A DNA stretch of 64,000 nucleotides. Origin: Crocinitomicaceae bacterium (GTDB lineage Bacteria > Bacteroidota > Bacteroidia > Flavobacteriales_D > Crocinitomicaceae). The position numbers and the translations under genes were made by a program. The stretch covers positions 1 through 64,000 of the forward strand of contig JABURP010000017.1 of the NCBI GenBank assembly GCA_014762645.1, given 5' to 3'. Below the pieces are notes generated by a model, which was not told where the DNA came from, made no database searches, and saw only the letters and a list, made by a program, of their open reading frames with translations. Below, one piece after another: positions 27,663-29,404 of this stretch; the stretch's first letter is position 1, and the number at the start of each line of letters is the position of its first letter.

Positions 27663-28298
27663 TTAAAACTCAATATCCAGATTAAAGAGTTTTCGAAATT
27701 TATGGAGGGATGAGTTTTCCTCTGCCAGTTTTTCGAAGGTAGATTTACTGTCCAAAATACTGACAGTTTCTGTCTCTTCCATAACATACTTCAGGCTGAT
27801 CTTTGTATTTTTCAGATTCTGCCTCAGATAACGTAGAAGCTTTGCTTTTTCAGCATCCAGTTCGTTTGATTGAACAGAATTTTTAATCTTCAAGGTGATG
27901 ATGTGATTCGAATCAACCTTCATGTCTGAATTCATCAGAGTAGAGAAAAGGCTGTCCCTCTTTTCATGTTTGAGTTGATACGCATATTTTTTCCACAGAG
28001 CTTCTAAATCGGCTACCTCATAGGTTTCATTCTGCTCTGCAAGTTGTTCTTCATTGTCCTGTTGTTTTCGGACACGTGGGTTTAAAGTAGATTTTATGCC
28101 AATATTATTGCTCGACAATTTACCTACAGGTTGGGACGCCGTTTTGCGTTCTGGCTGAACCATTACTACAGATTCCTTTTTATCAGCAATTACATGTGTT
28201 TTTTCTTTTGCTTCGGAAGAAGTGACCAACTCTCTTGGCTCATGTTGCCCTGCATAAGGCAAAATTTCTATTTCGAGATAACTTAAGATACCGCCTCC
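27663..28298 (-). CDS. dnaX: dnaX tau-specific C-terminal extension, reached by -1 frameshift
   Basis: A 211-codon extension in the -1 frame relative to the upstream dnaX frame. It is open without a stop from the slip site at 28298 to 27663. It begins GGGILSYLEIEILPYAG, passes through a low-complexity charged linker (about 25-115), and ends in a compact domain with EALWKKYAYQLKHEKRDSL and LRQNLKNTKISLKYV. That domain resembles the C-terminal domain of Bacteroidota DnaX. Joined to the first 369 codons it gives a 580-residue tau-like protein. There is no ATG of its own; a TTG at 28262 is the only near start. It is therefore best read as part of dnaX rather than as a separate gene. Confidence 0.8.
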   Translation of the reverse strand, partial: GGGILSYLEIEILPYAGQHEPRELVTSSEAKEKTHVIADKKESVVMVQPERKTASQPVGKLSSNNIGIKSTLNPRVRKQQDNEEQLAEQNETYEVADLEALWKKYAYQLKHEKRDSLFSTLMNSDMKVDSNHIITLKIKNSVQSNELDAEKAKLLRYLRQNLKNTKISLKYVMEETETVSILDSKSTFEKLAEENSSLHKFRKLFNLDIEF

Positions 28299-29404
28299 TT
28301 TTTTTGAAGAGTACTAACAATACTACAGAACTTCATCAGTCCTACCTCTACGTGCAGACGTTTATTTTTACTTGCTTTATATTGCCCTTCAAGCGCTCTT
28401 AAAAGGTCAAGAGCAGTAAGTAAAAAACTTTGAGGTGCCTTTTCAGCTTGAGAAACATACGTTTCTTTTAAGTCTTCCGGAACATCTAAAATCTGAAGAG
28501 TTCTGGGGTCCTTGCAAACCAATAGGTTTCTCAAATGCTCTGCTAAACCAAGAATAAATTGGCTACCATCAAATCCATTCGAAAGGATCTCATCATAAAT
28601 GAGAAGGTTGTCGGGAATATTGCCCTCAAGGGCATGGTCAGTAACTTTGAAGTAATAATCGTAATCCAAAACATTCAGGTTTTGGAGTACGGATTCGTAG
28701 GTAATGTTATTGTTACTAAACGAGACGATTTGATCAAAAATTGAGAGGGCATCTCTCAGGGCACCATCTGCCTTTTGTGCTATAATGTGTAGTGCCTTGT
28801 CATCTGCATCAATTCCTTCTTTTTCGGCAATCCCCTTAAGGTGATCTACAATATCCTGAATTTGTATCCGGTGAAAATCAAATATCTGGCACCTGGATAA
28901 GATGGTTGGAAGAATTTTGTGCTTCTCCGTTGTGGCAAGAATGAAAATCGCGTGTTTGGGTGGTTCTTCCAGTGTCTTCAGAAAAGCATTAAAAGCTGAA
29001 GAAGACAACATGTGCACCTCGTCTATGATAAAGATCTTGTATTTTCCTACCTGGGGCGCAATTCTAACCTGATCAATCAGGTTACGAATATCATCTACAG
29101 AGTTATTTGATGCGGCATCCAACTCAAGAATATTAAAGGAGTGTCCTTCATTAAATGATTTGCAGGACTCGCACTCATTGCAAGGTTCAATATCTTCTTT
29201 GAGATCAAAACAGTTGAGTGTTTTCGCCAGAATTCTGGCTGTAGTGGTTTTTCCTACTCCTCTTGAACCAAAAAATAGAAAGGCCTGTGCCAGATGATCA
29301 TTTTTAATGGCATTTTTTAAGGTAGTAGTAATCGCAGATTGACCTACGACAGAATCAAAGGTTTGTGGGCGATACTTTCGTGCCGATACTACAAATTCAC
29401 TCAT
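28283..29404 (-). CDS. dnaX: DNA polymerase III subunit gamma (short form of DnaX)
   Basis: A 373-residue clamp-loader ATPase in the zero frame. It has ARKYRPQTFDSVVGQ at the start, Walker A FGSRGVGKTTTARILA, a zinc-binding cluster (Cys residues in LNCFDLKEDIEPCNECESC), Walker B KIFIIDEVHML, and the sensor 1 region ILATTEKHKILPTILSRCQIFDF. A domain III follows up to STLQKKEAVS. The frame closes just after an A AAA AAG heptamer at 28298-28304, while the -1 frame stays open for the tau extension. This short product would keep the ATPase and pentamer-forming domains but lack the polymerase- and helicase-binding part. Confidence 0.93.
   Translation of the reverse strand: MSEFVVSARKYRPQTFDSVVGQSAITTTLKNAIKNDHLAQAFLFFGSRGVGKTTTARILAKTLNCFDLKEDIEPCNECESCKSFNEGHSFNILELDAASNNSVDDIRNLIDQVRIAPQVGKYKIFIIDEVHMLSSSAFNAFLKTLEEPPKHAIFILATTEKHKILPTILSRCQIFDFHRIQIQDIVDHLKGIAEKEGIDADDKALHIIAQKADGALRDALSIFDQIVSFSNNNITYESVLQNLNVLDYDYYFKVTDHALEGNIPDNLLIYDEILSNGFDGSQFILGLAEHLRNLLVCKDPRTLQILDVPEDLKETYVSQAEKAPQSFLLTALDLLRALEGQYKASKNKRLHVEVGLMKFCSIVSTLQKKEAVS
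28298..28304 (-). promoter_or_regulatory. dnaX: Programmed -1 ribosomal frameshift slip site in dnaX
   Basis: On the minus strand the zero-frame codons are CAA AAA AAG GAG, giving the heptamer A AAA AAG in the exact X XXY YYZ phase used by Escherichia coli dnaX. A -1 slip enters the open tau frame. A GGAGG block follows directly, but I see no strong hairpin immediately downstream. The run of seven A could also allow transcriptional slippage. Confidence 0.75.

Follow-up and report, generated by a model that had tools for sequence, protein, structure and literature searches.

The window, as we call the whole stretch of 64,000 nucleotides analysed here, is contig 43 of the 4.23 Mb genome G000 of a Crocinitomicaceae bacterium (128 contigs, 99% complete), and on its minus strand it carries a dnaX gene laid out in two reading frames (Table 1). 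The zero frame encodes a gamma-like product whose length of 373 residues agrees with the first-pass annotation of this DNA, and it ends CAA AAA AAG GAG GCG GTA TCT TAA. The frame downstream, displaced by −1, aligns with the C-terminal part of PRK14971, a dnaX model (E 3.8e-21), and the match to this model is pieced together from both frames, residues 1–368 lying in the zero frame and the C-terminal part in the −1 frame. The gene is dnaX, with an AAA+ clamp-loader ATPase and domain III followed by the tau C-terminal part (tau-C), and the −1-frame ORF downstream of gamma is a real coding sequence. This ORF has a single match in its own genome, and no second dnaX tau part was found elsewhere in G000. 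A second PF13177 match in G000 belongs to a separate 377-aa frame, which was taken as another clamp-loader subunit.

Table 1. Features of the dnaX locus in the window.
Feature	Coordinates	Strand	Remarks
dnaX zero-frame ORF, gamma-like, 373 aa (AAA+ ATPase, lid, domain III)	28283..29404	-	PF13177, PF22608, PF12169 over cut-off; NCBIfam PRK14971 696 bits
A_AAA_AAG heptamer (end of A7 run + G)	28298..28304	-	shared with G001 and G010; G040 has it inside its A10 run
AAAGGAGG, 8 bases complementary to the 16S tail, 4 bases before AUC	28294..28301	-	16S tail from G001
AUC codon of tau frame overlapping gamma stop (AUCUUAA), proposed near-cognate start	28287..28289	-	
Gamma zero-frame stop TAA	28283..28285	-	
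tau-C reading frame (−1), 208 codons from AUC + stop	27663..28289	-	
tau-C head: conserved short motif, roughly IxxxxEIxI[LI]P[FY]xGQ, in predicted disordered linker	28242..28289	-	
tau-C folded C-terminal domain (predicted), residues about 86–205	27675..28034	-	most ten-residue blocks pLDDT >90

The frame change coincides with an exact A_AAA_AAG in the phase X_XXY_YYZ, and a −1 shift on it would join 369 residues of the zero frame to 211 of the −1 frame, which gives the 580-residue tau described previously. As also described, no other run of seven A occurs in the gene (dnaX has three of six A as well), GGAGG follows the heptamer, and there is no strong stem-loop (z 0.17). At the scale of the window AAAAAAAG as such occurs at chance frequency, with 15 copies found vs. 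13.4 expected, and A_AAA_AAG occurs in frame four times, dnaX included, in the 19,835 codons of the window's stop-to-stop frames of at least 150 codons. The heptamer alone is therefore unremarkable, and what is remarkable is its position at the frame change.

To place this arrangement among its relatives, dnaX was searched for in 150 same-family genomes and found in 146. The open frames are mostly of 359–409 aa; longer ones occur in G051 (595), G009 (448) and G056 (488), of which only G051 reads as a single frame at the junction, and a few fall short of this range, several of which lie at a contig end or contain an internal stop. Removal of duplicates left 101 distinct two-frame dnaX genes, nearly all from Bacteroidota, 84 of which lie outside the clade of the window. 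The longest A run in these 84 is of ten A in 70 genes, eleven in 10 and twelve in 1 (A10–A12 in 81/84), the exceptions being three irregular loci with 3–4 A only (L072, L127, L148). Single-ORF dnaX genes (64 distinct, again nearly all from Bacteroidota) carry A9–A12 at the end of domain III in 47 cases, 37 of them A10. The counts in two-frame and single-ORF genes together show that an A10 run at the end of domain III is widespread in the phylum, which fits the proposal of transcriptional slippage in two-ORF dnaX made in the available part of Antonov et al. (2013; PMC3711429), where nine of the 17 genes of a GeneTack cluster of two-ORF dnaX with poly-A are A10. The usual signal of two-ORF dnaX in the phylum is A10, probably acting by transcriptional slippage. 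Outside the clade the tau frame is −1 in 76/84 genes and +1 in 8/84, and the occurrence of both directions at one A run argues for transcriptional slippage there.

Several further observations from this survey concern individual genes. Seven two-frame genes with an A run have tau in +1 beside −1 relatives (L184, L186, L196, L197 (family f3), L143, L180 and L183), and the eighth +1 gene, L127, has no A run. At most 5 A are found in 17 of the 64 single-ORF genes, many of them titled Bacteroidales, Prevotella or Bacteroidaceae, and these may make only tau. The single-frame dnaX of G051 (L064 / L167) has A11 and sits inside an otherwise two-frame family, which suggests that one architecture can turn into the other; a single base may be enough for the switch, or an assembly error may account for this gene. 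L148 (G006) and L171 (G130) have extra frame breaks inside the gamma part, unlike their relatives, and these are probably assembly errors. The dnaX of two MAG records, L063 (titled Chryseobacterium gleum) and L106 (titled Chitinophaga pinensis), belongs to the window's family, and the titles look wrong: the gamma of L063 is 97% identical to that of a same-family genome, and L106 has a family-type junction and a tau-C match of 218 bits.

The clade of the window comprises 17 genomes (g1 with four, the window's own included; g8; g11 with nine; g20; g23; g24) and is monophyletic with support of 100/99. All 17 keep tau in the −1 frame, so the comparison of relatives that the first-pass annotation proposed bears out its two-frame layout; the exact heptamer, in contrast, is present in 4/17 only (G000, G001, G010 and, within its A10, G040). 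In the remaining 13, the interval from the last −1-frame stop to the gamma stop contains no X_XXY_YYZ heptamer, two of the 17 genomes having no −1-frame stop within 60 bases. Even in the window's genus the heptamer is absent from two of four genomes, G002 and G003, which read CAA AAA CAG and CAA AAC AAA. The A run itself measures 3–7 A in 16/17 genomes, and G040 alone has A10; the tree does not fix its place inside the clade, and a single loss and several losses of A10 both fit. In six g11 genomes (G104, G070, G059, G096, G013, G088) the open part of the −1 frame ahead of the gamma stop is only 10 bases long, which leaves no codon pair for ordinary −1 slippage and confines any shift to the last few codons, e.g., CAG GCA TCC TAA. 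No conserved RNA structure was found at the clade junctions (per-genome z of −1.7 to 1.3 with simple shuffles; no conserved pair).

A homopolymer or assembly error, raised earlier as an alternative, is ruled out because the two-frame layout is common to all 17 clade genomes, including the single-contig G001, in which A7 itself is also present. Single-frame relatives with A8, which the first-pass annotation had named as contrary to its reading, do not occur in the clade. The tau-C sequence is under purifying selection although the slip site has been lost in most of the clade: dN/dS is 0.095 in g11 (G059 vs. G032), and the other seven pairs tested have pN of 0.10–0.46 vs. a near-saturated pS of 0.75–0.88. 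The junction run expected of a slippage-type two-ORF gene is about nine or ten A long, against A7 in the window. Most likely the heptamer in the window is what remains of the family's A10 run; it may work in the window species, and across the relatives of the window it is dispensable. The claim of a programmed −1 frameshift is accordingly upheld in its conserved gamma/tau layout and in the legitimacy of the −1 site, and it is not supported in the role of the heptamer as a general joiner of the two frames.

A second feature of the junction is the overlap between the gamma stop and a start-like codon of the tau frame. An AUC of the tau frame overlaps the stop as AUC-N-UAR in 13/17 clade genomes, although these genomes are related and junction counts are not independent. 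The other four are G040 with its A10 and three genomes with canonical starts overlapping the upstream stop, namely G025 with UAAUG, G047 with AUGA and G088 with GUGA followed by AUC. The AUG of G025 aligns with the codon that is AUC elsewhere, and the AUG and GUG of G047 and G088 lie one codon earlier; outside the clade a canonical start occupies these positions in 1/76 of the −1 genes. Overlaps such as AUGA and UGAUG are a hallmark of termination-reinitiation (PMC6728339, in the part available). In the junction column AUC makes up 14/16 Ile codons vs. 17.5% of the Ile codons in these genes, with synonymous sites near saturation. The next conserved Ile column, which lies outside the overlap, is also biased (ATA in 14/17), so the uniformity of AUC alone proves little and is supportive rather than decisive. 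An excess of ATH codons at the junction (a start-like codon in 16/16 clade rows vs. 12/76) was set aside as weak evidence because Ile is conserved there.

Within the 30 bases before the AUC, the 16S tail matches best at AAAGGAGG, which shares bases with the 3' end of the heptamer. The tail sequence is that of G001, no 16S match having been found in the G000 assembly. Complementarity of 8–9 bases, four bases before the AUC, is seen in G000, G001 and G010 (9 bases in the latter two), and no match of this kind was found at the junction in the rest of the clade. AAAGGAGG occurs in the window at chance frequency (3 vs. 2.36 expected) and for that reason was not used as decisive evidence of initiation; AAAGGAGGNNNNATC occurs six times in the genome vs. 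once for its reversed control. Bacteroidia ribosomes are described as mostly not using Shine-Dalgarno sequences (accessible parts of PMC9976891 and PMC6728339), and an extended Shine-Dalgarno sequence is reported to drive rpsU in Flavobacterium johnsoniae (PMC9976891, in excerpt).

Near-cognate starts look to be in use elsewhere in the clade genomes. Infc was read in 15 clade genomes; in 14 of them the stretch from the in-frame stop upstream to the conserved core contains no ATG, GTG or TTG, and all 14 carry a conserved ATA-GCN, which in G000 comes after AAAGGAGG. The exception is G025, with TTG, which also has AUG and not AUC at dnaX. Outside the clade, infC was read in four same-family genomes (G085, G054, G031, G146), and all four have ATG. 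The infC loci are L236 (G000 contig 17, 59244–59744) and L237–L255, and in the 14 clade genomes the start is apparently AUA. G153, from another family, was considered as an infC control and proved ambiguous because it has ATG but also ATA-GCT after AAAGGAGG. The infC of E. coli starts with AUU. The infC gene provides a precedent inside the genome for a near-cognate start, although not proof of one at dnaX.

With these observations in mind, it seems somewhat probable, on balance, that tau-C is made in the window by termination-reinitiation at a near-cognate AUC. The window gene would then be a two-ORF dnaX in which the A10 slippage signal usual in the family has decayed and the zero frame makes gamma. 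After termination at the gamma stop, ribosomes would begin anew in the −1 frame, a few bases back, on the AUC of AUCUUAA, perhaps helped in the window species by AAAGGAGG four bases upstream, and this would be the main route to the tau C-terminal part. The products would be gamma, with a C-terminus ending EAVS, and a separate tau-C protein of about 208 aa (a disordered linker and a folded domain) beginning with the N-terminal peptide (f)MLSYLEIEILPYAGQHEPR, in place of a fused tau. We favour this reading because the slip site is lost with tau kept, the open stretch in six g11 genomes is only 10 bases long, canonical stop/start overlaps occur, the junction is biased to AUC, infC offers its precedent, and RNA structure is lacking at the junctions. 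Reinitiation, using AUG or GUG in three lineages and AUC in thirteen genomes including the window, would also be the simplest single account of the clade. There are points against it: AUC is a poor start codon, the next Ile column is biased too, Shine-Dalgarno sequences are little used and AAAGGAGG is at chance frequency. With tau split, moreover, its C-terminal domain would no longer be coupled to the clamp loader, barring an interaction between the pieces. Further points against it are that the window keeps a good −1 heptamer and that the only tRNA-Lys found in G000 reads UUU, both of which lend weight to another explanation.

That explanation, −1 programmed ribosomal frameshifting at A_AAA_AAG, is a serious rival, albeit one we consider rather unlikely. 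Most ribosomes would make gamma and a fraction would slip to give the fused 580-aa tau, which would carry the tryptic peptide GGGILSYLEIEILPYAGQHEPR, and the relatives that have no heptamer would have switched mechanism. The heptamer of the window lies in the right phase shortly before the stop, and it recurs in G001, G010 and inside the A10 of G040, but it is absent in G002, G003 and altogether 13/17 of the clade genomes that keep the layout, and in the window in-frame copies of it are not rare. Two-ORF dnaX genes with tau made by a shift are known, including a seven-A case in Chlorobium phaeobacteroides (PMC3711429, available part) that is credited with potential stimulators like those of E. 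coli (PMC5009743, in excerpt). At the window junction neither a 3' structure nor a Shine-Dalgarno-like stimulator just 5' of the heptamer was seen.

It is improbable that the stop is itself the place of an unconventional shift, in which a ribosome holding UCN in the P site and UAR in the A site would enter the tau frame by a −1 or +2 move. The 13/17 genomes with the AUC also have UCN UAR, since both readings share these bases, and the permitted stretch of just 10 bases in six g11 genomes suits this possibility; however, we reason that −1 (AUC) and +2 (UUA) would both be poor re-pairings for tRNA-Ser, the third base of UCN varies, and three genomes with neither UCN UAR nor A10 have stop/start overlaps. 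Least probable of all is transcriptional slippage at A7, in which RNA polymerase would add one A in some transcripts and standard translation would yield tau: the runs outside the clade with tau in −1 or +1 (one of the latter genes having no run) fit it, and slippage is predicted for A10 and argued for shorter runs in the available part of PMC3711429, but the window has only A7, runs this long are common there (15 AAAAAAAG), and the 3–6 A in 14 of the other 16 clade genomes are not expected to act.

In the AlphaFold2 model of tau-C the first 70 or so residues are disordered and a confident folded domain follows; the break lies at the head of this linker, so that a split would cut through neither folded part. 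The first 16 residues hold a motif that occurs in this or a similar form in the 17 clade genomes, within disordered sequence; it is possibly a binding peptide. Pfam gave no model over the cut-off on the window tau-C, a PDB sequence search gave nothing credible, and Foldseek gave no match below E 0.001. VIA-align placed 4tps_B first (Z 8.2), an entry that holds SirA and DnaA domain I; the N-terminal domain of DnaA came next, with DciA lower. These model-based matches are middling ones to a common small fold, and we claim no function from them.

It is useful to compare the window with systems already described. It resembles the two-ORF poly-A dnaX genes of the accessible part of PMC3711429 in that gamma ends at a zero-frame stop and the tau C-terminus follows in another frame, conserved in 17/17 clade genomes, and most of the window's family has A10; unlike them, the window lineage has lost A10 (A7 in the window, 3–6 A in most relatives) and kept the two ORFs. 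In the same available part, 5/17 two-ORF dnaX genes have no described poly-A, and these may resemble the arrangement of the window. With E. coli dnaX the window shares the heptamer and its phase, as well as a gamma and tau with a common N-terminal part, but the roles are reversed, since in the window it is tau and not gamma that needs a shift. The window heptamer is also not conserved (4/17, one within A10), and neither a stem-loop (no conserved pair) nor an upstream Shine-Dalgarno-like stimulator was found in the window; its GGAGG lies 3' of the heptamer and so is no upstream stimulator of the E. coli kind. Transcriptional slippage in dnaX is reported for Thermus (PMC3711429, in excerpt). The A9 of Thermus thermophilus dnaX resembles the window in placing an A run at the end of domain III; it differs in that the Thermus gene is a single ORF and the run is shorter in the window. 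Termination-reinitiation pairs (AUGA, UGAUG; PMC6728339, in the part available) likewise have a stop overlapping a start, as proposed for the window and as seen in the AUGA, GUGA and UAAUG of three clade members, but in the window the start would be a near-cognate AUC with an overlap of 7 bases, and the two halves are pieces of one ancestral protein.

Two-ORF dnaX is already known; no description was found, in the literature searched, of such a gene that has outlived its slip signal and has stop/start overlaps instead. That search, with most subscription papers outside its reach, found no dnaX start of the AUC-overlap kind. In the available part of PMC3711429, translational coupling and recoding are suggested to be interchangeable at such frame changes. 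A clade with a decaying slip signal beside a family with a near-invariant one offers a natural series for testing such a switch. The comparison also carries a caution, in that an exact heptamer, taken without its relatives, is insufficient to call a programmed frameshift. Should the AUC serve as a start, dnaX would offer a conserved near-cognate start in a gene other than infC, and a two-piece tau in the clamp loader, if true, would question the need for gamma and tau to be joined. We tentatively suggest the possibility that in this flavobacterial lineage dnaX frameshifting has been lost and replaced by a stop-restart at a conserved near-cognate AUC, so that tau would consist of gamma plus tau-C and the synthesis of tau-C may respond to initiation factor 3, as that of infC is thought to; a recoded gene would here be becoming a split gene.
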